From a virus: a stretch of 61,789 nucleotides of DNA. Numbering within the stretch: the first letter of the stretch is position 1; every line of letters starts with the position of its first letter. The DNA is taken from positions 1 to 61,789 of the IMG/VR virus record IMGVR_UViG_3300035698_024294; one strand, given 5' to 3'. The notes below the pieces were generated by a model. It was not told the DNA's origin, made no database searches, and saw only the letters and a program-made list of their open reading frames with translations. The translations under genes and the position numbers were made by a program. Shown piece after piece: positions 27,782 to 50,447 of the stretch.

Positions 27782-27810
27782 TTGACAATAAAAGAATAAT
27801 ACTCTATAAT
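27782..27810 (+). promoter_or_regulatory. early-type promoter for dnaE N-terminal part
   Basis: TTGACA, ATAAAAGAATAATACTC, TATAAT, 17 bases before the ATG. Confidence 0.9.
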
Positions 27811-27827: not shown

Positions 27828-29117
27828 ATGAGCTTTTCGCACTTACATATCCATTCTCACATTGGAAGTCAATTGGATGGGGTAGGAACGCCTACCCAAT
27901 ATGCCGAATTGGCTAAAAAGATGGGTCATACATCTTTAGCAATTACAGACCACGGAAAAATGAATGGTCATTACGAACACTATCAAGCATGCAAAAAAGC
28001 TGGTATAAAACCTATCTTTGGAGTTGAGGCTTATGTAGAATTTGAGCTTGAAAGAATGGCTGAAGTTAAAGGAAAGGTGAAACGTCAAAGAAATAAAAAC
28101 ATGCATATGGTTTTATTGGCTAAGAACGAGATTGGATATAAAAACTTATTAAAGTTAAATTACTTATCTAATTCAGATGAAAAACATTATTATTACACAA
28201 ATCACATTTTAATTAAAGAAATTTTTGAGCATAAAGAAGGAATAATTATAGGAACTGCTTGTATGGGTTCTCCGTTTGCAAGATTATATAGAGATGATAA
28301 AAAAGATTTATCTGAAAAATTATTCAAGACTTTTAAGGAGCAGTTTGGAGAAGATTTTTACGCTGAAATTCAGATGAATGAAATTACTCATCCTATTGAT
28401 AATTTTGAGCATGGACAAAAATCTGTAAACGAATGGATGATTAGCCTTGCCAAAAAGTATGATGTTCCAATTGTAATGACGGGAGACGTTCACTATGCAG
28501 AACCAGGACTTGATAAAATTCAAACTCTTGCTATTGCAATAAGTAGAAAAACAACTCTTGCTGAATTAGATTGGAAGCTTGAAGGAAAAAGTTTATTCTA
28601 TATGGATGAAAGCGACTTTCATAAGTTTAATGAAGATTGGGATTATGGATACACAAAAGAAGAGATTGATGAATGGTGTAATAATACTCAATTGATTGCT
28701 GACAGATGTGAGTTTAAATTTATGGAAAGAAACAGATTGTTACTTCCGAAGTTTTCTAAGGATGATGATAGTTTATTGATTAAGGAAAGCAAGAATGGAC
28801 TCGTAAATAAAATGAAGCTTTCACTTTGGGAAGAAGTTCCAGTAAAATATAGAAAGCGACTTGTTAGAGAACTTGAAATTCTTTTAAGAAAAGGGTTTGC
28901 AAGTTATATTATGATTCTTTGGGATGTGTTTAACTTTTCAAAGAGAGAAAATATTATGAGAGGCCCTTCTCGCGGCTCTGGTGGAGGTTCTTTAGTTTTA
29001 TATTCCTTAGATATAACAACTTTAGATCCAATTGAATATGAACTGATTTTTGAAAGATTTCTTTCTGATGAACGTTCGATGGATGTTATATATGATTACT
29101 TTGGAGAAGCAATATGA
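27828..29117 (+). CDS. dnaE: DNA polymerase III alpha (DnaE), N-terminal piece: PHP domain and start of palm
   Basis: 429 residues. The PHP domain (1-~230) keeps metal-site motifs: HLHIHSHIGS, ITDHGKMNG, FGVEAYVE, GTACMGS and TGDVHYAEP, so proofreading by PHP is possible. Palm follows: MRGPSRGSGGGSLVLYSL, then TTLDPIEYELIFERFLSDER. In DnaE the next residues are SMPD(I/F)D.D with the catalytic Asp pair; here the frame reads SMDVIYDYFGEAI and stops, so the piece lacks all catalytic Asp. The missing part continues at 32087-33167 after 3 kb of other genes. Ribosome site AAAGGAGATAAA. ATGA overlap with the next gene. Confidence 0.92.
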   Translation: MSFSHLHIHSHIGSQLDGVGTPTQYAELAKKMGHTSLAITDHGKMNGHYEHYQACKKAGIKPIFGVEAYVEFELERMAEVKGKVKRQRNKNMHMVLLAKNEIGYKNLLKLNYLSNSDEKHYYYTNHILIKEIFEHKEGIIIGTACMGSPFARLYRDDKKDLSEKLFKTFKEQFGEDFYAEIQMNEITHPIDNFEHGQKSVNEWMISLAKKYDVPIVMTGDVHYAEPGLDKIQTLAIAISRKTTLAELDWKLEGKSLFYMDESDFHKFNEDWDYGYTKEEIDEWCNNTQLIADRCEFKFMERNRLLLPKFSKDDDSLLIKESKNGLVNKMKLSLWEEVPVKYRKRLVRELEILLRKGFASYIMILWDVFNFSKRENIMRGPSRGSGGGSLVLYSLDITTLDPIEYELIFERFLSDERSMDVIYDYFGEAI

Positions 29118-29407
29118 AAACAATTTATAAATACGAATTAGAAGTTGCAGATAGACAAATGGTTAAATTGCCAGTAGGTGCTGAAATTCTTTCTGTATTT
29201 TCGCAAAAGAAGGAAGGAACAGAAGAATTGTTTATATGGGCTATGATAGACACTAAAGAAGAAAATACTTCAGTCAGATGGATTAATGTATATGGAACTG
29301 GAAATCCAATAATTGATTCTGAATATCTTGACTTAAAATTTATAGGAACTTGCCATATGTTTAAAGGTTCTCTTGTTTGGCATGTTTTTGAAAGTGTAGG
29401 GAGTTAA
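29114..29407 (+). CDS. conserved small phage protein
   Basis: 97 residues, MKTIYKYELEVADRQMVKLP, then AEILSVFSQ, GTGNPI and GSLVWHVFE. I recognise this as a widespread uncharacterised phage/bacterial family of this length. It overlaps the dnaE piece by 4 bases and starts a cluster of small genes inserted between DnaE parts. Confidence 0.65.
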   Translation: MKTIYKYELEVADRQMVKLPVGAEILSVFSQKKEGTEELFIWAMIDTKEENTSVRWINVYGTGNPIIDSEYLDLKFIGTCHMFKGSLVWHVFESVGS

Positions 29408-29408
29408 A

Positions 29409-29570
29409 ATGGACGATGAAATTTATGATGAATTTGTTGATGGGTTTAATCAAGGCAAAGCATTTCTTGCTGATTATTTATTGGAGTGGATAAATACTGA
29501 TGAAAGTATTCCGCAAGAAACTTCAGAACTTTTAAGGCAAAAGATAGAAGGTTTTAATAATGAAGATTGA
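29409..29570 (+). CDS. small acidic hypothetical protein
   Basis: 53 residues, MDDEIYDEFVDGFNQGKAFL, two bases after the previous stop, overlapping the next gene by 11 bases. No family recognised. Confidence 0.5.
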   Translation: MDDEIYDEFVDGFNQGKAFLADYLLEWINTDESIPQETSELLRQKIEGFNNED

Positions 29571-29772
29571 GTTTATAGAAGGTGAGTTAGAAAAAGTTTC
29601 AACACAAATATTAGAATTTTTATTAGAGTTTTTTTTAAATAATTGTGATGATCAAGAATTAGGTTATATTGTATATCATATGGAAGATTATGCTTATAAA
29701 GTTTCTATTGATAAAGAACGTAACAGAATAAATATAGAAAAGTATCTTAACGATGATAAGGAAGTAATGTAA
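29560..29772 (+). CDS. small hypothetical protein
   Basis: 70 residues, MKIEFIEGELEKVSTQILEF, acidic, helical first half. Overlaps neighbours on both sides (TAATG downstream). Confidence 0.5.
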   Translation: MKIEFIEGELEKVSTQILEFLLEFFLNNCDDQELGYIVYHMEDYAYKVSIDKERNRINIEKYLNDDKEVM

Positions 29773-29942
29773 TGGAAGTAGAGTATACTGTATCTTGTAA
29801 TGAATGTGGCGAAAAGTTTAAGGTAAGATTTGATACATCAGGCTTAGACAAAGAAATGCAGATGATGGCTGTTTGTCCATCATGTCAAAAAGAAGTTGAA
29901 GTTACCCTCAAAGGAAATATTCAAAGAATAAAAAAAGATTGA
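29772..29942 (+). CDS. small zinc-ribbon protein
   Basis: 56 residues with CNECGEKF and CPSCQKEV, a four-Cys zinc ribbon. Start overlaps the previous stop. Its stop codon lies in the -35 of the next promoter. Confidence 0.6.
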   Translation: MEVEYTVSCNECGEKFKVRFDTSGLDKEMQMMAVCPSCQKEVEVTLKGNIQRIKKD

Positions 29943-29967
29943 CATAAAAAGAATAATTGTCTATAAT
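29939..29967 (+). promoter_or_regulatory. early-type promoter for Pif1-like helicase
   Basis: TTGACA, TAAAAAGAATAATTGTC, TATAAT. ATG follows five bases after the -10, so the message would be leaderless or start very close to the ATG. Confidence 0.88.
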
Positions 29968-29972
29968 TAGGC

Positions 29973-31277
29973 ATGAACCAAGAAGAAAAAGATGAACTGA
30001 AAATAATTATAGACAAGTATCTAAAAGACTTTGACGATTTAGGATACGAAATGAATGATGAACTCAAGAAAGCACTTTTGCTTGCTGAGTTCTCTGAGAA
30101 AAACGTTATCGTTTCTGGGAGTGCAGGGACTGGTAAATCTACATTTATAGAATTATTGCAGGCTAATACGGAAAAGAATTTAGTCTTGTTGGCTCCTACT
30201 GGAGTTGCTGCAGTTAATATTAAAGGTGTAACTATACACTCATTCTTCAAACTTGCCTTTGGCATAATAAATAAATTCGCAGTATCGTCAGGAAATAAAG
30301 ATGTAATAATGAAAACAGATGTTATTATTATAGATGAAATTTCAATGGTGAGAGCTGACTTAATGGATGCTATGGATTATCAGCTAAGAGTTTTAACTGG
30401 TAATTCTAATGTTCCATTTGGCGGAATTAAAATTATTGCTGTTGGTGACTTATTTCAATTACCTCCAATCGTTAGGAGAGGAAGTGCAGATGAGAAATAT
30501 ATAAAGGAAAACTTTTATTCTTCTTGGTTCTTTAGTGCTCCTGATATTGGACATTTCTCTATCGTTGAACTAACAAAAATTTATAGACAAAAAGACGAAA
30601 ATTTTGTAGAAACTCTTAATAGAATTAGAACAGGAAAACAGTCTTGGGATGATTTGAAATATATTAATAAAAGAGTTGTAAAAGAAGAAAGTTTTGGTGA
30701 TGATTATATTTATTTATCTACTACTAACAGAGTAGCTGATGAAATAAATAGAAAGCGTCTAAAGGAAATTAAGGAAAGGTCATATTATTTTTCAGCTCTT
30801 ATTTCAGGGGATTATCCTCAAGGTTCATATCCAACAACTGAAAGATTAGAGCTTAAGAAAGGCGCTCAAATAATGATGATTAAAAATGGATTGAATTGGT
30901 ATAATGGTCAAATAGGTTTTATTACTTCTATTGGAGAAGATTATATTAAAGTTTCTCTTGATGGTATAACTCGTTTAATTGCTAAAACTGTTTGGATAAA
31001 TGGAGACTATGAATTAAAGAATGGGAAAATTCAGATTACTGAAAAGGGACGTTTTACTCAATTTCCAGTTAAGCTTGCTTATGCAATAACAATTCATAAA
31101 AGTCAAGGAAAAACTTATGATAAAGTTTATATTGATTTAGGAAATGGAGCGTTTAGTGCAGGACAGACTTATGTTGCATTATCAAGATGCAAAACGTTAA
31201 AAGGAATTGGACTAAAGTATAAAGTGGAAAAATCAGATATTATAGTTGATAGAGTTTTGAAAGAAAATTTTGCATGA
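29973..31277 (+). CDS. Pif1-like superfamily 1B helicase (Dda role)
   Basis: 434 residues. Walker A GSAGTGKST (49-57), APTGVAAVNIKG, Walker B VIIIDEISMV, AVGDLFQLPP, and C-terminal YAITIHKSQGKTYDKV and TYVALSRCKTLKG. These are the motifs of the Pif1/RecD branch of 5'-3' helicases, as in T4 Dda. It likely removes proteins or structures at forks. Its gene lies between DnaE pieces and has its own promoter; the stop overlaps the HNH gene by 4 bases. Confidence 0.9.
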   Translation: MNQEEKDELKIIIDKYLKDFDDLGYEMNDELKKALLLAEFSEKNVIVSGSAGTGKSTFIELLQANTEKNLVLLAPTGVAAVNIKGVTIHSFFKLAFGIINKFAVSSGNKDVIMKTDVIIIDEISMVRADLMDAMDYQLRVLTGNSNVPFGGIKIIAVGDLFQLPPIVRRGSADEKYIKENFYSSWFFSAPDIGHFSIVELTKIYRQKDENFVETLNRIRTGKQSWDDLKYINKRVVKEESFGDDYIYLSTTNRVADEINRKRLKEIKERSYYFSALISGDYPQGSYPTTERLELKKGAQIMMIKNGLNWYNGQIGFITSIGEDYIKVSLDGITRLIAKTVWINGDYELKNGKIQITEKGRFTQFPVKLAYAITIHKSQGKTYDKVYIDLGNGAFSAGQTYVALSRCKTLKGIGLKYKVEKSDIIVDRVLKENFA

Positions 31278-31741
31278 CAAAAGCAGAATATAAAAGAGAC
31301 TGGAAAAGAGAAGCAAGAAAAAAAGATCTTTATTATAAGTCATGGGATAGTTTAGCTCGCCTTATCCGGCAAGATATCGGAAAAGAAAAAAAAGGAATAT
31401 GGATTGGAGAAATTGTAGGATATTCTAAGCAAGATTTTGGTAATTATATAGAAAGCATTTTTGAAGAAAAAATGAATTGGAAAAACTATGGAAAAGGAAA
31501 AGGTTTTTGGAATATAGATCATATTATTCCAAGAAATTTTTTTTATGATGCTTATGGATATAATTTAGAGGCAGCTAAAAAAGCAAACTCTTTAAGGAAT
31601 TTAAGACCTTTTTGGTTTGAAGATAATGTAATAAAAAGAAGAAACATAAGATTAGAAGAAGTGGAAAAATATCAATTAGAAGATTTAATTCCAGAGGTGT
31701 TTTTTGAAAAGCTTAAGTTATTAAAAGCAATAAAAACTTAA
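31274..31741 (+). CDS. HNH homing endonuclease
   Basis: 155 residues, basic N-terminus MTKAEYKRDWKREARKKD, HNH core FWNIDHIIPRNFF and NSLRNLRPFWFEDNV. Begins inside the helicase stop codon (ATGACA). It sits upstream of a decayed HNH gene and 0.6 kb before the group I intron, which carries no endonuclease of its own. Confidence 0.8.
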   Translation: MTKAEYKRDWKREARKKDLYYKSWDSLARLIRQDIGKEKKGIWIGEIVGYSKQDFGNYIESIFEEKMNWKNYGKGKGFWNIDHIIPRNFFYDAYGYNLEAAKKANSLRNLRPFWFEDNVIKRRNIRLEEVEKYQLEDLIPEVFFEKLKLLKAIKT

Positions 31742-31757
31742 CTAAAGGATAATAAAA

Positions 31758-32100
31758 ATGTTAAAAGAGAAAAAAACTATGATAATTAAAGTTCCTAGGA
31801 AGAGATAAAGACGGAAATAAATGGACTGAAATTTTAGGTTATAATGCTGATGATTTATTAAAGCATTTTGGAGTTTCTTTTATTCCAGAAGAATATCAAA
31901 TAGATCATATAATTCCAATAGATTTATATAATTTTTGTGGAATAGATGAAGAATTTATGAAATGCTGGAATATTAGAAACTTAAGAATAATTCCAGCTAA
32001 AGAAAATCAAGCAAAAGGAAATAAGCTTGACAAAAAAAGAATAATTGAGTATAATATAATAAACTTGTTACCAAAGGAGATAATTTTTGAAGACATTTGA
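31758..32100 (+). pseudogene. decayed HNH endonuclease
   Basis: The ATG frame at 31758 stops after 16 codons. The next frame is open for ~95 codons with EILGYNADDLLKHFG, then YQIDHIIPIDLYNF and CWNIRNLRIIPAKENQAKGN, a clear HNH core of the phage intron type. A one-base shift near 31800 separates start and domain. The early-type promoter at 32027 lies inside its 3' part. Confidence 0.75.
32027..32055 (+). promoter_or_regulatory. early-type promoter for dnaE middle piece
   Basis: TTGACA, AAAAAAGAATAATTGAG, TATAAT. Followed by AAAGGAG and a TTG start at 32087. Confidence 0.88.
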
Positions 32101-33167
32101 AGACTTAAAAAGTCTTTGCGAAAAGTCAGAAAGATTTTTTGTTCTCACAGAAGAACAGAAAAAAAGATACAAAAAAGAAATTAGTGTAGCTAAAAGATTT
32201 TATGACAATGGAAGAAATTTATATAATGAATTAGTTGAAAAACAGTTAATGTTAAAAACTCAATATATAATTCCATACATTATAGGATTAACAGATATGT
32301 TAACTGATGAAAAACCAGTTTATATTCAAGTAAAGTCTGGAGCCTCAGGTGGTAAGGCTTATGCCACCCGTTATAGAAATATAGCGTAAAAAATGTTCTA
32401 AATTGTCGGGGAACTCCAGAGATGGACAATCCGCAGCGAAACCCGAAAGGGGACGTTCAACGACTATAATGGACTGCCTAAACGTAAAGACGTAGGTAAA
32501 GGGATAGTCTGATCTTACTATATAATCTAAAAAGAAAAGTAAGCTAACATAAATGATAGACATAGATACTGACTGGCAAGGGAATGGTCGTGAAAAAATA
32601 TATAACTATCTTAAAGAAAAATATGGTGAAGATAGAGTTCTTCACGTAGGAACGTTTTCTGCACTTGGGCCAGCTTCTGCTGCTAAAGATGTTTTAAGGG
32701 CTAATGGAGCAGACTTTGGAAAATCAAATAAGTTTACAAAAGTTCTTGAAAAGAATGAAACTTGGCAAGAAAATCTCGATAGGATTAAAAGAGAAGAGCC
32801 AGAAAATTGGAAGTTCTATTTAGCTAACGAGAAAATTTTTGAAAGTGTTCCTCATCTAATCGGAAAAATTCGTCAGAGCGGAAAACATGCTGGAGGTATT
32901 GTAGTAAGTGATAAACCTATTTACAATTATATTCCAGTTGATAGAGTTAATGGAGAAGTTGTAACAGCTTTTCCAGAATCTGGAAGTAACGCCGTTCTTG
33001 ATGAATTAGGTATTATTAAATATGATATTCTTGGTATATCAATTCTTGACGTTATGGCAGAAACTATTGATATGATTGATGAAGAAATTTATATGATTGA
33101 AGATGATGATGGAGTAATTAAATTTGTTCCTCAGAGTTATATTGATAAAGAAATAGAACAATTTTAA
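32087..33167 (+). CDS. dnaE: DnaE middle piece with catalytic aspartates, interrupted by a group I intron
   Basis: Read as join(32087-32353, 32556-33167), 292 residues. Exon 1 gives 89 residues from a TTG start (AAAGGAG), MKTFEDLKSLCEKSERFF to QVKSGASGG, which I cannot align to DnaE. Exon 2 opens IDIDTDWQGNGREK, the palm motif with two catalytic Asp, continues VLHVGTFSALGPASAAKDVL, GKHAGGIVV and ELGIIKYDILGIS (third catalytic Asp, equivalent to E. coli D555), and stops at the position where DnaE continues in the 34805 gene. Without splicing only a 100-residue peptide ending in the intron is made, so polymerase activity depends on splicing. Whether exon 1 replaces a lost N-terminal join is unknown. 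Confidence 0.8.
32354..32555 (+). ncRNA. group I intron, 202 nt, no ORF
   Basis: P1: exon GGTGGT (32348-32353) pairs with GCCACC (32363-32368), giving the U-G pair at the 5' splice site. P6 is CCC-GAAA-GGG with a GNRA loop. P7 is CGACTA (32461-32466) with TAGTC (32505-32509). P8 is CCTAAACGT/ACGTAGG. P9 is CTTAC/GTAAG. The last intron base is G32555. P10 pairs exon 2 AUAG with UUAU next to the guide. Both exons join in frame. The core resembles the T4 td-type (IA2) intron. Confidence 0.85.
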
Positions 33168-33177
33168 GGGAGAGAAA

Positions 33178-33439
33178 GTGAAACTAAAATATAAAGAGTA
33201 TAAAGAAAAGGAAGTTAATATACATAAACGCGAAATGTTCTGATCTTTGCATATGTATTATTTATGATTCAGACGGCAATTTGTTAAAAGAAACTGACGG
33301 ATATGTTCCTTCATTTATGCCAGATGGCGGTGGAGATTATGTTGATTTAGAAATTGATGTAGATACAGGTCAAATTCTAAACTGGAGAGCAAACAAAGAA
33401 AATCTTGAAGATTTTATAAATGAAAAAGGAGATGAATAA
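33178..33439 (+). pseudogene. small gene with an internal frameshift
   Basis: A GTG frame (AGGGAGAGAAA ribosome site) reads MKLKYKEYKEKEVNI and stops at 33241. The +1 frame continues NAKCSDLCICIIYDSDGN, then YVPSFMPDGGGDYVDLEID and ends with TAAATG at the next start. Together they look like one 85-residue protein broken near 33220. A sequencing error or programmed shift is possible. Function unknown. Confidence 0.55.
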
Positions 33440-33652
33440 ATGAGAGCAAAATTTGAATGTTGTAGCGTAACGAGACTTAAAGATACTGTTGAAGCTTCAT
33501 TGACCGCTGTGTCAGGAGAAGATAAAGCAGATCAGGAGTTTAATAAATATACTCCATCAGGCACATTAACAATAATGATTGATAATAAAGCAGTTTTTAA
33601 TTTTTTTGAGCCTGGTAAAAAATATTTTCTTGACATTTCCGAGGAGGGTTAA
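33440..33652 (+). CDS. small hypothetical protein
   Basis: 70 residues, MRAKFECCSVTRLKDTVEAS, beta-rich, with FFEPGKKYFLDISEE at the end. Similar to small phage proteins of unknown function often seen beside replication genes. Start overlaps the previous stop region (TAAATG). Confidence 0.55.
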   Translation: MRAKFECCSVTRLKDTVEASLTAVSGEDKADQEFNKYTPSGTLTIMIDNKAVFNFFEPGKKYFLDISEEG

Positions 33653-33871
33653 GTGGCAATAAAAAATAAAGAAGTAATGGTTTTAGTAAACAAGAAAATA
33701 GAAGAGATGGAAAAACACTTTAATGTTTTAGAAACTGAAATTCAAAAAGATGATGATAAGTTTAATAAATCTATTGTCGCAGTTAGTGTTGGAAAATTGA
33801 TGAAACTCCATCAAGATGTTTCATTTTTTCTTGGTGTATTTGATGGTAAACCAAAATACGAAGGGCAATAA
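33653..33871 (+). CDS. small helical hypothetical protein
   Basis: 72 residues from a GTG start directly after the previous stop (GAGGAGGGT serves as ribosome site). Helical, charged. No family recognised. Confidence 0.5.
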   Translation: MAIKNKEVMVLVNKKIEEMEKHFNVLETEIQKDDDKFNKSIVAVSVGKLMKLHQDVSFFLGVFDGKPKYEGQ

Positions 33872-33874
33872 GAT

Positions 33875-34138
33875 ATGGAATTTTATAAAGGAATGTCAAT
33901 CCCTGGATTAGTTAGCGGATATATTTTTGAAGGAAACTTGCCTTTTTATAACGGTAAAAATGATTCAGGGATTACAATAGAAATGGATGGTGGCGTTAGA
34001 GGATTTAACATACGAGCAACTGCTATTTTTGACGGGGAAAAATGGAAAGTAAGTGGTAGCAGTTTTGACTTTACTGGAGAGAAAGTTTATATATGTGAAA
34101 AGGTAAGAACTCTCGTTTACGAAAAGGAAAAGGAATAG
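33875..34138 (+). CDS. small hypothetical protein
   Basis: 87 residues, MEFYKGMSIPGLVSGYIFEG, beta-rich (alternating hydrophobic, several Gly). Three bases after the previous gene; runs into the sigma-like gene. Confidence 0.5.
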   Translation: MEFYKGMSIPGLVSGYIFEGNLPFYNGKNDSGITIEMDGGVRGFNIRATAIFDGEKWKVSGSSFDFTGEKVYICEKVRTLVYEKEKE

Positions 34139-34141
34139 TAA

Positions 34142-34528
34142 TTGTTAAATATAGATAAAGATATCCTTAATGAAAAATATAATTCTGGTGATATGGATTA
34201 TTTTTTCAGTAAGGCTAACGAAATAACAGATTTCATTTTAACCAGAAAGTATAATATATATGATGATGAGAAGCGTGCTGATATGACTCAAGAATGTCTT
34301 GAAAACTTATGGAAGAAAGTAAAAGTAGGTAAGGTTGATGGTTCGAAGAACTTGATGAGTTTTGTTTGGCAAAACTCAACTTTCAGAATACTTGAAATTT
34401 TAAGGAAAGAAAAGAATCGAAATAGGATTGCACCTTTCATTTCGTATGACAATGAAGAATTTGAATTTCTTAAAGGCGTAGATAGTGCTAAGTATGGTCA
34501 AGCAGAAATAGATAAGATATTTGCGTAA
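34142..34528 (+). CDS. sigma-like factor, candidate late sigma (gp55-like)
   Basis: 128 residues from a TTG start (AAAAGGAATAG). The central part resembles sigma-70 region 2: DEKRADMTQECLENLWKKVK, then GSKNLMSFVWQNSTFRILEI and LRKEKNRNR, as in ECF factors and T4 gp55. The C-terminus is short and holds no region 4, like gp55, which needs other phage proteins. The window's late genes share a GTAAAGATAA-type motif that such a factor could read. Assignment by pattern only; a non-sigma helical protein is the alternative. Confidence 0.6.
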   Translation: MLNIDKDILNEKYNSGDMDYFFSKANEITDFILTRKYNIYDDEKRADMTQECLENLWKKVKVGKVDGSKNLMSFVWQNSTFRILEILRKEKNRNRIAPFISYDNEEFEFLKGVDSAKYGQAEIDKIFA

Positions 34529-34540
34529 AGAGGGGATAAA

Positions 34541-34768
34541 ATGAATGGATTTATAGCGAACAATTTCAGAGTAAAGTTTGAGTATATGTTGCTAGAACAA
34601 TACTCAAATGGGCCAGACCAGCACGAACGCTGGGTTAAAGTGATACAACTAAAGACAGAAGATGCGTTATTCATTGTTAGAGAGCGTTCCTTTGAACAAA
34701 TAAAAGATAAAGAATTTGAAAGTATGTGTAATTATACTGTTTGGGTTTTAGCAGGAAAACCAGAATAA
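34541..34768 (+). CDS. small hypothetical protein
   Basis: 75 residues, MNGFIANNFRVKFEYMLLEQ, behind AGAGGGGATAAA. Beta-rich start, no family recognised. Last gene before the promoter of the DnaE C-terminal pieces. Confidence 0.5.
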   Translation: MNGFIANNFRVKFEYMLLEQYSNGPDQHERWVKVIQLKTEDALFIVRERSFEQIKDKEFESMCNYTVWVLAGKPE

Positions 34769-34770
34769 CC

Positions 34771-34799
34771 TTGACATAAAAAGAATAATATAGTATAAT
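34771..34799 (+). promoter_or_regulatory. early-type promoter for dnaE C-terminal pieces
   Basis: TTGACA, TAAAAAGAATAATATAG, TATAAT; ATG at 34805 is five bases after the -10, so there is no room for a ribosome site. Confidence 0.88.
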
Positions 34800-34804
34800 T
34801 AGTT

Positions 34805-35476
34805 ATGAGAATAATAAAAAAGGTAACTAAACAAGAATTGAAAGATCGTCTGTATAATATTGATACAGGCGATCTTAATCTTTACAAAGAAGCTAACAAC
34901 GAAAATTCTATTGGTATTTTTCAACTCAATGGAAATCTTGCACACGAAATAATTAAAAAAGTAAAACCTCAAAATTTTGACGAGATAAATGCAGTCTCTG
35001 CTTTCGCAAGACCTGGAACATCAAGTTTCGTCGATAAATACATTAAAAACAGAGAAAATCATAAATCTCAGTATCCAGAAAAAATAGCTGCATTGTTACA
35101 AGAAACTCAATCCGTTGTTTTATATCAGGAACAGGCAATGTCTGTATTTAATAAGATTGGTGGATTTTCTCTTGAAGAGTGTTTAACTGGAGATACTATA
35201 ATTCTTACAAATAAAGGGGATATTTCAATAAAAGAAATAGTAGAAAATAAATTAGATATAAAAGTTTTATCACTGAATGAAGAAACTGGTGAACTTGAAA
35301 TGAAACCAGTGATTAAGTTCTTTAATAATGGAACAAGAGAACTAATAGAAATAGAGATAGAAGCAGGAAATGCTATAAAATGCACTCCAGAACATGAATT
35401 TTATACAAAGAATAGAGGCTGGATAGAAGCTAAAGATTTAACAGAAGAAGATGAACTTTTTCATAACCCATCGTAA
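34805..35476 (+). CDS. dnaE: DnaE third piece fused to N-terminal half of a split intein
   Basis: 223 residues. Residues 1-125 continue DnaE after the catalytic Asp: SIGIFQLNGNLAHEIIKKVK, FDEINAVSAFARPGTSSFVD, SVVLYQEQAMSVFNKIGG (fingers). After FSLEE the intein half starts at Cys126, CLTGDTIILT, with block B CTPEHEFYTK, and ends DELFHNPS with a stop. Residues 126-223 (98 aa) are a normal split-intein N half. The partner is at 36371. An HNH gene separates them, the layout called a fractured gene. The spliced product is DnaE residues joined as FSLEE + CDSIRGLM. Confidence 0.93.
   Translation: MRIIKKVTKQELKDRLYNIDTGDLNLYKEANNENSIGIFQLNGNLAHEIIKKVKPQNFDEINAVSAFARPGTSSFVDKYIKNRENHKSQYPEKIAALLQETQSVVLYQEQAMSVFNKIGGFSLEECLTGDTIILTNKGDISIKEIVENKLDIKVLSLNEETGELEMKPVIKFFNNGTRELIEIEIEAGNAIKCTPEHEFYTKNRGWIEAKDLTEEDELFHNPS
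35180..35473 (+). mobile_element. split intein, N half (DnaE)
   Basis: 98 codons from Cys1 (TGT 35180) to the stop, blocks A and B present. Split is at the canonical position between the horseshoe halves. Confidence 0.92.
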
Positions 35477-35482
35477 AGATAA
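35473..35482 (+). promoter_or_regulatory. late-type motif GTAAAGATAA before the HNH gene
   Basis: A perfect GTAAAGATAA that includes the stop codon of the N-intein gene, followed by TATAAGGAG and the HNH start. If functional, it would give the endonuclease late expression separate from the polymerase pieces. Confidence 0.45.
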
Positions 35483-35496
35483 TATAAGGAGATACG

Positions 35497-36381
35497 ATGA
35501 ACTATGAAAAAAACTATAATGATTATATTAATTATGTTAAATCTTTAAATAGAAAAAAAAGTGACTGTATGTATTATGAATTACATCATATAATCCCTAG
35601 AAGCTTAAAAGGAACAAACGATGACGGCAATTTAGTTTTGTTGACATATAGAGAGCATTATTTAGCCCATTTTTTATTATGGAAAATTTATAGCAATAAA
35701 GAAATGATGTATTCTTTTTGGTTAATGAATAACACAAAGAGCAAAGTTAAGTTTAACATAAGTTCAAGATTATATGAAAGTCTAAAAACTTCTTTTATAA
35801 AGGCACAAGAGAAAAAAGTTATTTGTTTAGAAACAGGTAGAGTTTTCGATTCTATGAAAAAAGCTTCCTCTTTTTATGACTTAACAAGTGCAGACGGGAT
35901 AAGGATTTCAATAAAGAATAAAAACAGTATTTCAGCTGGATATCATTGGGATTATTATTATGATAATATAGATTATACAAGAGATAAGTTTTACAAAAAA
36001 CAAAAAAATGTATATACTGTTATTAGGCTAGAGGACGTGGAAAAATATCTCTCTTATAAAGAGGCTGGAATAGATAATAACATAACAGGATCTACTATTT
36101 GTGATGCTGCAACTGGCAGAACAAAAACAGCCAATGGATATCATTGGAGTAAATTTGATAGCCTTGTTGATTATACTAAAAATAAGTTTTATAAAAAAGA
36201 AAGAATGTCATTTCCTTCTGGATACAAAAAAGTTGTTTGTATCGAAACAGGAAAAAAATATAATTCTCAGCAAGAAGCTGCTAGAGACATAGGATATAAA
36301 ATATCTGGAGATATAGGCAGATGTTGCGACGGAAAATTGAAGTCTTGTGGCGGATTTCGCTGGAGAAGAAATGAAAATTAA
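35497..36381 (+). CDS. HNH endonuclease with NUMOD1 repeats, inside the split-intein gap
   Basis: 294 residues. HNH core YYELHHIIPRSLKGTNDDGN, then LVLLTYREHYLAHFLL. The rest holds three NUMOD1-like DNA-binding repeats: VICLETGRVFDSMKKAS, an internal copy YLSYKEAGIDNNITGSTI, and VVCIETGKKYNSQQEAA, each ending in (A/G)GYHW or CGGFRW. It lies exactly between the two intein halves and overlaps the C half by 11 bases. It presumably targets intein-free dnaE. Confidence 0.88.
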   Translation: MNYEKNYNDYINYVKSLNRKKSDCMYYELHHIIPRSLKGTNDDGNLVLLTYREHYLAHFLLWKIYSNKEMMYSFWLMNNTKSKVKFNISSRLYESLKTSFIKAQEKKVICLETGRVFDSMKKASSFYDLTSADGIRISIKNKNSISAGYHWDYYYDNIDYTRDKFYKKQKNVYTVIRLEDVEKYLSYKEAGIDNNITGSTICDAATGRTKTANGYHWSKFDSLVDYTKNKFYKKERMSFPSGYKKVVCIETGKKYNSQQEAARDIGYKISGDIGRCCDGKLKSCGGFRWRRNEN

Positions 36382-36472
36382 AAACATAAAAAAAATTGAA
36401 TCAGAAACTGTTTACGATATAAAAGTTAAAGATAACCATAACTTTTTTGCTAATAACGTTTTGGTTCATAAT
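36371..36472 (+). mobile_element. split intein, C half (DnaE)
   Basis: 34 codons ending His-Asn before Cys+1 (36473), matching the N half at 35180. Confidence 0.92.
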
Positions 36473-37615
36473 TGCGATAGTATTCGTGGTCTTATGAAAA
36501 AACTTGGAAAGGCTGAAAAAAAGAAAGAAGATCTTGATAAATGGGATGTCGTTATTAAACGATTTACAAAAGGAGCACAAGAAACTGGTATCTCTTTAAA
36601 AGATGCAAAAAATGTTGCTAGCGATATGCTTAAAATGTCGTCGTACCAATTTAATAAATCTCATGCAACTGCATATACTTTTATTGCAGCTCAAACTTTG
36701 TATTTATCATATTACTTTAGAAAATACTTTTATGCGTCAGTTCTCCATTACGAGGTAGGACGAGATAAGTATCTTTTAGAGAGATTAAAATCTGTTAAGT
36801 CTCAAGGGTTTAACATACTTCCTCCAGATGTAAACAAATCAAAAATAAGTTTATCTCCTGTTAAAGGAAGCGCAAACTCTATTATCTTTGGATTATATGA
36901 TGTTAAAGGTATTGGAGAAGTTCCGGCAACTACTATTAAATCGTTACAACCATTTGATTCAATGATAGATTTCATTCTTAAAATTCAGGGTAAAAGAATT
37001 TCTATTACTGTTATAAAGGCTCTCGTTGTAGCAGGTGCTTTTGATGATATAGAGGATTATGATAAGAAGATTTTATATGAAGCTGTTCTTTTATTCTGGA
37101 AGGATAAGAAGTCGACAAAAGTTCCAGAAAAGTTAGAGCAGATTTGGGATGCTTCTTTACAAACAGTTATAGAGACAACTCTTCCAGCTACGTTTGAGGA
37201 ACAGAAAGACTATGAAAGAAAATCTCTTGGGTTTAATTTCTTTATAAATTCTTTCACAGAAGAGTTCTTATCAGCAATTGATGTTCTTGTCAAGAAAGGA
37301 TTAGCTTATCCGTCAATAGATAAAGTAAGAAAAGGATCTGCTAAAGTTCCTGTAGTTGTTAATAAGATTAAAACCCTTAACGACAAGAATGGTAAAGAAA
37401 TGGCTTTTCTTGATTTAGAAGATCAATTAGGCCAAGACTTAAGCGTTCCAATATTTCAAAGTTTTTGGAAGGTTCTGAAGACAAGGTTTGTTGAAGGTAA
37501 GATGCATATGATAAATTTGTATCTTGATGATGATCAGGTTATGTTCGGAAAGAGTGGATATGTCAGGAAGGATATGGAAATTTCAAGAATGGTGAAGAGA
37601 TTAGATAACCTGTAA
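36371..37615 (+). CDS. dnaE: C-terminal half of split intein fused to DnaE C-terminal piece
   Basis: 414 residues from ATG 36371 (TGGAGAAGAA); an upstream ATG at 36347 lies within the HNH gene. Residues 1-34, MKIKNIKKIESETVYDIKVK to NNVLVHN, are the intein C half (blocks F and G), followed by Cys+1. DnaE continues CDSIRGLMKKLGKAEKKKED, SSYQFNKSHATAYTFIAAQT (fingers), GFNILPPDVNKS, YDVKGIGEVPA (HhH) and an OB-like C-terminal region. A clear clamp-binding peptide is not visible. About 505 DnaE residues result after trans-splicing with the 34805 product. Confidence 0.93.
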   Translation: MKIKNIKKIESETVYDIKVKDNHNFFANNVLVHNCDSIRGLMKKLGKAEKKKEDLDKWDVVIKRFTKGAQETGISLKDAKNVASDMLKMSSYQFNKSHATAYTFIAAQTLYLSYYFRKYFYASVLHYEVGRDKYLLERLKSVKSQGFNILPPDVNKSKISLSPVKGSANSIIFGLYDVKGIGEVPATTIKSLQPFDSMIDFILKIQGKRISITVIKALVVAGAFDDIEDYDKKILYEAVLLFWKDKKSTKVPEKLEQIWDASLQTVIETTLPATFEEQKDYERKSLGFNFFINSFTEEFLSAIDVLVKKGLAYPSIDKVRKGSAKVPVVVNKIKTLNDKNGKEMAFLDLEDQLGQDLSVPIFQSFWKVLKTRFVEGKMHMINLYLDDDQVMFGKSGYVRKDMEISRMVKRLDNL

Positions 37616-41366: not shown

Positions 41367-41797
41367 TGGAAAAAAAATTAGGAATTTATGCAGGTAGTTT
41401 TAATCCATATCATATTGGGCATGAAGATATTTACCGACAAGCTTCTAAAGTTTTTGATGAAGTTATGATAGCACAATGTTATGATAGAGGAAAGGGTCAG
41501 CCAGCAAATCTTAAGCTAAAAGGAAGAAATGTTATTCACCATGGAGGACTTTTATATGAACTGTTTTATAAAGAATATCAAGTAGGAAAGTTTCTTGTCA
41601 GAGGGCTTAGAACGAGTTTCGATGTTGGGTATGAAAGTGATTTAAGAAATGTGCTTCTCGATTTTGATCCAACAATCAAAATCGTATATTTCTTTTGTAA
41701 GAAAGAACATGAACATGTATCTTCTTCAATGATAAGAAGTTTATATGGTTTTGGAGATGAAAATTATAAAAAATATTTAGTAGAGGGAGATATATAG
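41366..41797 (+). CDS. coaD: phosphopantetheine adenylyltransferase-like nucleotidyltransferase
   Basis: 143 residues, slightly short for CoaD (~160). Motifs: LGIYAGSFNPYHIGHEDI (HxGH nucleotide-binding site), FLVRGLRTSFDVGYESDL (RG substrate loop), then HVSSSMIRSL near the end, as in CoaD and related adenylyltransferases. CoaD transfers AMP to phosphopantetheine in coenzyme A synthesis; a change of substrate in this phage protein is possible. Start overlaps the exonuclease stop and its stop overlaps the next GTG. Confidence 0.75.
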   Translation: MEKKLGIYAGSFNPYHIGHEDIYRQASKVFDEVMIAQCYDRGKGQPANLKLKGRNVIHHGGLLYELFYKEYQVGKFLVRGLRTSFDVGYESDLRNVLLDFDPTIKIVYFFCKKEHEHVSSSMIRSLYGFGDENYKKYLVEGDI

Positions 41798-42819
41798 TGA
41801 TAGTTATAGGAAGTGGAAATTGTGGTTCTAAGTTAGCTACTTTATTTGACGATGATCCAATTCTAATTTCTACAGCTCATCAGGATTCGATGAACTTTAG
41901 TGATTACAAAGTAAATACGTTTACAGACGAAGGATGTGGTAAAAAATATGGAACTGGAGTTAAACTCTGGAATACTCATCTTAAGGAACTTGAAGCTGTA
42001 TTTGAAAAAGTAGATAACGAACAGGTCATTATTTTCTCAAGTATGGGCGGAGGTTCAGGAAGTTCTTCTCTTCAATTTATATCTAAGATTTTAATTGAAA
42101 AGGGAAATGATGTTTTAATTATTGGAGTTTTGCCTTTCAAGAAAGAAGTGGTTCCTCCTTTGGCAAATGCAGTTCAATCAATTAGCAGCCTTATGCCTTT
42201 GATAAATGATATAACAATTATGTTATTCGATAATCAAATATTATTAAAAGAACATAACAATGACTGGACTGAAGTAAATAACAATATAGTTAGAAAAGTA
42301 AATTATGCTGTTAATTTAATTGATAATCATTCAGTTGATGGATATTCTCCATTAACTATTGATCAGTCAGAAGTTGAATCTGTAGTGTTTGGTGGTGGAT
42401 TTTTAGATGTATCGGATGTGTTTCTTGAAGAAAATCCGCCTAAGTTTCAATATGGAAGATTAGACAAAGAAACAAAAAATGTAATGATTGCAATGTTTGT
42501 AGATGAAATGGTTGAAGATGATAAGCTTGAAGACTATCACAAAAAGTTAACTGAGGTTCAAAGCAAATACGCAGGAAGAGCAAAGAACGCAAGGATTGTT
42601 CCTGGCATAATTCGAGGAAGAGTTCTAAATTCATATTCAGAAGAAAAAGTAACTGATAGAGCTTATATCACAATTGCTTCTGGGTTGAATGTAGAAAAGT
42701 ATCTTGTTCGAATAGAGAAACTTAGAGATTTTGCTGTAGAGAAGGCAACTATTTTTTCCAGTAAGATTGTTGGAAGAAAAGTTGTTAGCAATAAAGAAAC
42801 AAAGATACTGGATATTTAA
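41797..42819 (+). CDS. FtsZ/tubulin-superfamily GTPase
   Basis: 340 residues from GTG. The N-terminal nucleotide loop is MIVIGSGNCGSKLATLF, the tubulin signature is SMGGGSGSSSLQF (residues ~83-92; GGGTGTG in FtsZ), followed by IIGVLPFKKEV as in FtsZ GVVTxPF, and LFDNQILL like the FtsZ N-x-x-L segment. A helix with NNNIVRKVNYAVNLI follows. The C-terminal domain is shorter than in FtsZ and has no conserved tail. Phage tubulins (PhuZ, TubZ-like) form filaments that position phage DNA; alternatively this protein interferes with host FtsZ. It is cotranscribed with replication-type genes. Confidence 0.78.
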   Translation: MIVIGSGNCGSKLATLFDDDPILISTAHQDSMNFSDYKVNTFTDEGCGKKYGTGVKLWNTHLKELEAVFEKVDNEQVIIFSSMGGGSGSSSLQFISKILIEKGNDVLIIGVLPFKKEVVPPLANAVQSISSLMPLINDITIMLFDNQILLKEHNNDWTEVNNNIVRKVNYAVNLIDNHSVDGYSPLTIDQSEVESVVFGGGFLDVSDVFLEENPPKFQYGRLDKETKNVMIAMFVDEMVEDDKLEDYHKKLTEVQSKYAGRAKNARIVPGIIRGRVLNSYSEEKVTDRAYITIASGLNVEKYLVRIEKLRDFAVEKATIFSSKIVGRKVVSNKETKILDI

Positions 42820-49763: not shown

Positions 49764-50447
49764 ACAGCTTTGCTTGGAAACATTGCTGTAAATTCTTTCC
49801 TTCAGGGAAAGAATGTTTTAGTGTATACTTTTGAAACATCTAAGAAGAGACTTCTTTCAAGGTATTACTCAAATTTAATTGAAATGACTAAGAAAGAGAT
49901 TATAATAGATAATCAAAAGACAGAAGATGAACTGAATAATGTAATGGCACAAACTACTGGAGATATTATTCTAAAAGAATATCCGGCAAATACAACATCT
50001 TCTAATGACCTTCTGGCTCACATTAACGACTTGTGGCTTTACAAGAAGTGGAAACCTGACATTATCATTGGTGATTATATCTTAATTATGGCAGCTAACG
50101 ATAAATCATTAAAATCAGATAATTCATATAAATATTATAAAACTGTAACAGAAGAATTTAGAAATTTATGTTGTTTGCTTCACATACCGGGAGTTTCAGC
50201 AACGCAGATAAACAGAGCAGGACAAGATGATCGTGGTGGTTCAAAAGCATTAACAACATCAAAAGATATTTCAGAAAGTCGTGGTATTTACGATACAGCA
50301 GATTTTTTCGCTACTATAAATCAGACAGCGAAAGATAGAGAATTTGGTAAGATTATGATTTACGTCGACAAAAATCGCAACTCAAATAAAGGAGCGAAGA
50401 TTAAAATGAGCATAGACTATGAACATATGCGCTTTAGTGAGATATAA
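49344..50447 (+). CDS. C half of atypical split intein fused to helicase core
   Basis: 367 residues from GTG. Residues 1-140 are the large C half: MIKTITEEIEVGKLFKKLN, block B-like ADKHKLEVK, block F EMYDMEVSKVKSFYANG, ending FNSHN before Thr+1. Splicing gives PGLGK + TALLGNIAVNSF, an intact Walker A. Helicase motifs follow: VLVYTFETSKKRLLSRYYS, DIIIGDYILIM (Walker B), VSATQINRAGQDDRGGSKAL and YVDKNRNSNKGAKI. It is the gp41/DnaB-type fork helicase partner of the primase. Confidence 0.92.
   Translation: MIKTITEEIEVGKLFKKLNINSQGTYKAPSSLKVKTVDGYKKVNGLLRTQLNPEWVVKTESGREAIFADKHKLEVKKSNMLDVNRFWKHVDNLVIGEEVNTENGWEKITECYFNGNESEMYDMEVSKVKSFYANGFNSHNTALLGNIAVNSFLQGKNVLVYTFETSKKRLLSRYYSNLIEMTKKEIIIDNQKTEDELNNVMAQTTGDIILKEYPANTTSSNDLLAHINDLWLYKKWKPDIIIGDYILIMAANDKSLKSDNSYKYYKTVTEEFRNLCCLLHIPGVSATQINRAGQDDRGGSKALTTSKDISESRGIYDTADFFATINQTAKDREFGKIMIYVDKNRNSNKGAKIKMSIDYEHMRFSEI

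Follow-up and report, generated by a model that had tools for sequence, protein, structure and literature searches.

A DnaE-type DNA polymerase III alpha encoded as three proteins, with shared break points, in a clade of phages

Organisation of the polymerase locus

The window, IMG/VR virus record IMGVR_UViG_3300035698_024294 over its full 61,789 nucleotides (nt), holds the genes of a DnaE-type DNA polymerase III alpha subunit (Pol III alpha) that is encoded as three proteins, designated here N, M and C. The genes are clustered on the + strand, spread over about 10 kb, and their order is the same in relatives. Pfam domains follow the order of DnaE along N, M and C, namely PHP, nucleotidyltransferase (NTase) palm, fingers and HhH, and the palm domain PF07733 is cut without overlap, with positions 5-99 in the open reading frame (ORF) 27828-29117 and positions 102-260 in ORF 32553-33167. 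These domain positions bear out an earlier interpretation of the window made from its letters (the sequence-only reading), in which Pol III alpha was spread over four reading frames in DnaE order and without clear overlap. The count itself is amended, as splicing at the RNA and protein levels reduces the four frames to three proteins, and the N|M|C split is shared across a phage clade.

Piece N (27828..29117) comprises the PHP domain (PF02811, 2e-33) and the N-terminal half of the palm with its nucleotide-binding loop, RGSGGGSL (28971-28994). All nine PHP metal-ligand positions are present (H7, H9, D17, H42, E67, H93, C145, D220 and H222). N closes with its own tail, SMDVIYDYFGEAI (29076..29114), and a stop codon, and is without an intein motif. 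From profile alignment and inspection by eye, the tail is the counterpart of the MPDFDVDF strand with the second Asp replaced, i.e. a conserved remnant of the catalytic strand. It is retained across relatives, for example as SPDLVIDY (L012 and L014; relatives carry L or G numbers) or SMDVIYDYF, and the position of the second catalytic Asp is occupied by Val or Ile.

Piece M is encoded by two exons. Exon 1 (32087..32353), with a TTG start after AAGGAG, encodes about 89 residues that are helical and by hhalign resemble a palm insert of unsplit phage DnaEs, described below. ORF 32087-32389 gave no Pfam match; it is assigned as exon 1 of M because its counterpart in L008 and L006, the same 88-residue sequence, continues in frame and without an intron into the IDIDTD segment. 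Exon 2 (32556..33167) encodes the C-terminal half of the palm (PF07733 102-260), with the codons of the catalytic Asp residues at 32559-32561, 32565-32567 and 33024-33026, the third in the motif IKYDILGIS at 33015. Alignment to E. coli DnaE matched M to alpha residues 401-574, with 401, 403 and 555 as the Asp counterparts, and thus all three catalytic Asp reside on M, whose own catalytic strand, GGIDIDTD, follows the extension of ~88 residues. The first cut had been placed just before the Asp pair in the sequence-only reading. The comparison with relatives indicates that it does not fall directly there, as M begins with a conserved helical segment ~90 residues earlier, and the end of N is a remnant of the catalytic strand.

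The two exons of M are separated by a group I intron of 202 nt (32354..32555; RF00028, 65.1 bits, E 1.2e-16, gathering threshold 50), in agreement with the intron proposed earlier within the palm piece. It was missed by an Rfam search of the whole window at the gathering threshold and was found by a narrow Rfam search. As read from the sequence, pairing is possible between GGUGGU, at the end of the 5' exon, and GCCACC in the intron, which would place a U.G pair at the splice site. The last intron base is G. An intron occupies the same site in L003 and L005. Joining of N to M exon 2 by trans-splicing of the intron (SMDV|IDIDTD) was also considered and rejected, as intron-free relatives show the 88-residue ORF, exon 1, directly upstream.

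Piece C is interrupted by a split intein. The N-extein, with the fingers (34805..35179; PF17657, 7.6e-27), is followed by the N half of the intein (CLTGDTI..., 35180..35476; PF14890, 1.8e-13, positions 1-92), a free-standing HNH homing endonuclease (35497..36381; PF22083, 5e-6, and PF01844, 3e-4, both just below curated cut-offs), the C half of the intein (...NNVLVHN, 36371..36472; PF14890, 2.8e-9, positions 122-155) and the C-extein (36473..37615; PF14579 (HHH_6), 1.3e-14), which holds the remaining fingers, the HhH and, as judged by eye, a probable OB fold at its end. At the level of ORFs, Pfam finds the finger domain and the intein N half in 34805-35476, and the intein C half and HHH_6 in 36347-37615. 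The junction EE|C...HN|CDSIRG fits the uninterrupted EECDGIRG of L008 and L006, and C is intein-free in L008, L014 and L028. The earlier view that the last two frames are rejoined by a split intein is therefore upheld by the PF14890 halves and the uninterrupted relatives. Intein halves on separate ORFs, an endonuclease between them and an extein that matches an intact relative would mark a gene fractured by a split intein, and among the pieces this combination is seen for C only.

A motif of 29 nt, TTGACANWAAAAGAATAATNNNNTATAAT, built like a sigma-70 promoter whose spacer is always 17 bases long, occurs at 22 sites in the window (9158 to 61692, all on the + strand, up to 3 mismatches; 0 expected). 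Exact copies lie upstream of N (TTGACA-NWAAAAGAATAATNNNN-TATAAT, 27782..27810), upstream of a Pif1 gene (29939..29967), upstream of M (32027..32055) and 5 nt upstream of the start of C (34771..34799), all on the + strand, and exact copies precede the same four genes in L008. The presence of a copy ahead of each piece, a feature of the window subclade, argues that N, M and C are each transcribed on their own. For several copies, among them those of Pif1 and C, the start codon follows after just 5 nt, which suggests leaderless mRNAs.

The sequence-only reading had left room for an unseen event that joins the pieces. Since the Asp codons are closely preceded by a group I intron, C holds a split intein, and split inteins also occur within N and M in L005 and L006, it is conceivable that N, M and C are rejoined covalently by an event not visible in the DNA, such as intron trans-splicing, another split intein or a ribosomal bypass from N to M. 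However, the intron is complete in cis, inside M; the conserved tail of N has its own stop and no intein motif; and up to 3 kb with other genes separates N and M, which remain separate ORFs in L008, L014 and L028, where neither intron nor intein is present. Since M has its own start and promoter, as have the other pieces, and since N and M are adjacent or overlapping in some relatives and fused in frame in one lineage, we regard covalent rejoining as very unlikely.

Conservation in related phages

Scans of viral contigs identified 14 relatives. Separate genes encode N and M in 11 contigs, namely the window, 3300013103_000034, 3300008469_000014, 3300033146_004404, 3300014208_000032, three contigs of 3300035698, 3300025141_013041, 3300033146_005954 and 3300038674_000677. 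In L058 and its copy L060 (zero tree distance) they are fused into a single 715-codon ORF, and only N is visible in two further contigs. C is a separate gene wherever it is seen (13/13 contigs). The spacing of N and M ranges from an ATGA overlap (L057) and ~30 nt (L012, L014 and L028) to 1-3 kb with other genes. The insertions also vary: L008 has none, L006 a split intein in M, and in L005 N carries a split intein, M an intron and C an intein. Since L014 and L008 are free of intron and intein and still have N, M and C in this order as separate genes, the three-way split is older than these insertions.

Inteins were observed at several conserved polymerase sites, the GRGS loop (N), GKIRQ|SGKHAGG (M) and FN|SHA (C), either split or with endonuclease genes (L005 2841-5538, L006 9734-11928 and L057 6995-9382, and in C of L012, L013, L058 and L005); the polymerase pieces are repeated targets of homing elements.

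The order N, M, C is shared by relatives from several metagenomes, the breaks being common to sequences at about 50% identity, and the catalytic and NTP-loop residues are kept across the clade. Rough ratios of non-synonymous to synonymous substitution (dN/dS), calculated at high dS, are 0.06-0.14 for N, 0.09-0.25 for M and 0.12 for C, consistent with purifying selection on all pieces. The HNH genes, intron and intein that crowd the locus might suggest a decaying polymerase, a pseudogene broken by homing endonucleases and other insertions, with replication carried out by another enzyme. Such decay is hard to reconcile with identical breaks over a clade at this level of divergence, with motifs that are all kept, with low dN/dS and with the absence of another polymerase family from the longest relatives (see below), and we consider it highly improbable.

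A different multi-ORF phage DnaE, in contig 3300008108_006898 (L017/L035, 3148-7437), lacks the catalytic DID segment at a junction and has a probable exonuclease gene between palm and fingers; the missing segment may be a deletion or an assembly error. The window contig is likewise metagenomic, and an error of assembly or sequencing, as may have occurred in the related-looking L017, could in principle produce broken frames. It is contradicted by independent contigs from several metagenomes with the same gene order and breaks, and by the promoter copies before each piece in both the window and L008, and is extremely improbable. As the same break points recur in at least 11 related genomes of uncultured phages, the comparison points to a stable design that is neither a broken gene nor an assembly error.

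In the phylogenetic tree the split clade forms a single group with 100% support. The best tree nests the fused L058 within this clade and thus prefers a re-fusion of N and M, but L058 as outgroup is statistically compatible with the data (p-AU, approximately unbiased test, 0.19). Whichever the order, the fusion is a functional link between N and M. No relative with the M extension was found in the bacterial genomes searched.

Origin of the M extension

Several unsplit phage DnaEs (L070, L073, L078, L087 and others) carry an insert of ~100 residues at the place of the N|M break. When hhalign profiles were compared, the insert matched the N-terminal half of the palm of insert-free DnaEs with a probability of 94% (P 1e-7); none of 100 column shuffles came near this match, and the palm half was the best of 20 DnaE windows. 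Separately, Pfam aligns residues 476-702 of L087 to PF07733 positions 21-260. The M extension resembles the insert along its length (P 0.0017-0.0028, 0/100 shuffles), whereas its direct comparison with the palm was not significant, with up to 2/100 shuffles reaching the score and a reversed control scoring higher. With a strong match between insert and palm, and M matching only through the insert, the profiles make an origin by duplication likely for the insert and only suggestive for the M extension. A tree that joins the split clade to the insert group had a somewhat better likelihood than a quick free tree (p-AU 0.67), so that the test is compatible with a shared origin of the two groups.

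In light of these data, we tentatively propose, at a little short of even odds, that a tandem duplication of the palm's N-terminal half was followed later by a cut of the chain between the copies, and that complementary decay of the copies divided the active site and made an obligate three-subunit alpha. N would have kept the nucleotide-binding loop and the catalytic strand minus its second Asp, whereas M would have kept the catalytic Asp and lost the loop.

Predicted structure and role in replication

AlphaFold2 modelling of the fused N-M protein of L058 (40 rows) gave a mean predicted local distance difference test score (pLDDT) of 87.1 and a predicted template modelling (TM) score of 0.81, with lower confidence in the segment that links N and M (block means about 43-84). 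By Foldseek the model was matched along ~700 columns to Pol III alpha of E. coli, Thermus and Mycobacterium, for E. coli to 4jom (E 8.6e-41, TM 0.67), and we conclude that fused N-M is predicted to adopt the Pol III alpha fold. A model of M alone (4 rows) had a mean pLDDT of 58.7 and was not used.

No PolA (PF00476), PolB (PF00136) or further DnaE was found in the relatives G001 (160 kb) and G002 (201 kb), and PF00136 had no match in six records of up to 201 kb, all of which may be incomplete. A DnaB-family helicase is present in the window (49764-50438) and in G002, G009 and G010.

Neighbouring genes

The gaps between the pieces had been read as holding Pif1, HNH and sigma-like genes; the first is confirmed by Pfam, the second rests on weak or sub-cut-off matches and the third was not borne out. 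The genes at 29114..29407, 29973..31277, 31274..31741 and 34142..34528 are on the + strand. A gene for a DUF7352 protein (29114..29407; PF24043, 1.5e-25) starts within the stop of N (ATGA overlap). The Pif1-like helicase gene (29973..31277; PF05970, 6.4e-29) lies between N and M in the subclade of the window only, and is followed by a probable HNH-type homing endonuclease gene (31274..31741; weak match to an endonuclease VII PHROG, 9.6e-5) with paralogues repeated in relatives. The remnant of a second HNH endonuclease frame (31797-32086) lies just before M and resembles an intact HNH ORF of L003 (8861-9556).

The examined clade members, like the window, have a small conserved gene between M and C (34142..34528 in the window). 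Searches against Pfam, PHROGs and the PDB, and comparison with a phage sigma factor, gave no support for its assignment as a sigma factor. By eye the protein is like sigma region 2, though no tool supports this, and it is a candidate accessory factor of the polymerase. Further downstream, a putative FtsZ/tubulin-like gene (41797-42819) was recognized by eye from its GGGSGSS motif, and similar ORFs lie downstream in L012 and L013.

Discussion

Gene structure, conservation, selection, promoter motifs, intron and intein signatures and the predicted N-M fold are directly established by this analysis. From these we infer, with a probability of roughly 0.85, that the DnaE-type Pol III alpha consists of three separately encoded chains that join non-covalently into one alpha subunit; the assembly, its polymerase activity and its role as the replicase are all part of this inference. 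Several observations weigh against it. The dS values are near saturation in most pairs, and the Foldseek coverage of the N-M model is no proof of a three-chain assembly. No beta clamp was found with PF02768. The contigs are all metagenomic, linear and possibly incomplete (61.8 kb for the window), and a polymerase may lie beyond them.

In the three-chain arrangement that we favour, N, M and C would be separately transcribed and translated and then assemble without covalent joining. N would provide the PHP domain and the NTP-binding loop of the palm, M the rest of the palm including all three catalytic Asp, and C, which in the phage of the window is trans-spliced through its split intein, the fingers, HhH and OB. 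With the NTP loop on N, the Asp residues on M and the fingers on C, the active site would exist only in the N-M-C complex. The N|M break would lie at a spot where the palm tolerates an extra segment, as in those unsplit phage DnaEs where a duplicate of the palm N-half adds ~90 residues, and the M|C break in the linker of palm and fingers. Intron and intein would be later insertions that leave the three-chain design unaffected.

Two-chain phage DnaEs are already known. Within the literature and collections searched, no published or annotated three-chain case with both breaks was found, and a search with full M returned no annotated phage record that covers 80% of it. Like the N|M break, the adjacent DnaE genes gp044/gp045 of Cellulophaga phage phiST (KC821604) are cut between the FERF and DID motifs, but the fingers are not split off and other short extensions are found at the junction. 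Like the M|C break, DnaE of Mycobacterium phage MrMiyagi (83/84) and Rossellomorea phage phiT1 (gp20/gp18) is cut between palm and fingers, but N and M are one chain and the cut is without intron or intein. In the annotated phages Cybele and LilyPad a two-gene DnaE is cut between PHP and palm. We also observed that dnaE2/dnaE1 of Staphylococcus phage PhiSepi-HH3 (L131, 2934-3397) are annotated as two genes cut just before DIDID; the gap of 462 nt at this cut may be an intron. The unsplit DnaEs with an insert (L078, L087) have ~100 residues between FERF and DID that share homology with the palm N-half and resemble the start of M, but in a single continuous polypeptide.

Cyanobacterial DnaE is encoded in two genes and rejoined by a split intein. 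That enzyme is restored covalently in full, whereas in the window only C is rejoined. Dassa et al. (2009) reportedly described genes fractured by split inteins, in which a free-standing endonuclease lies between the halves. The layout of C, with the intein N half, an HNH gene and the intein C half, is of this type, but it accounts for the cut inside C only and not for N|M or M|C. The palm is also divided in the group 2.2 jumbo phages, which beside a family B polymerase have a minimal Pol III alpha, the core NTase and a template-binding domain, split into NTP-binding and Mg-binding proteins encoded by distant genes (Iyer et al. 2021, PMC7824862). The palm is likewise cut between NTP-binding and Mg-binding parts on separate proteins in the window. 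Unlike the group 2.2 enzyme, that of the window is not minimal, as it has PHP with a complete ligand set and three chains; its genes are clustered, and no PolB was found in the records searched (up to 201 kb).

If the three-chain reading is correct, a replicative polymerase can have its catalytic core shared out over three proteins that are expressed independently, the residues for NTP binding and those for metal binding being on separate chains, and such an arrangement can persist through long evolution. The breaks would then be natural split sites of DnaE, useful for controllable polymerases, and the palm would offer a case in which duplication of a half-domain and the complementary losses after it can be tested. 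The pieces N, M and C are easily mistaken for gene fragments, which calls for caution in the annotation of such phages.

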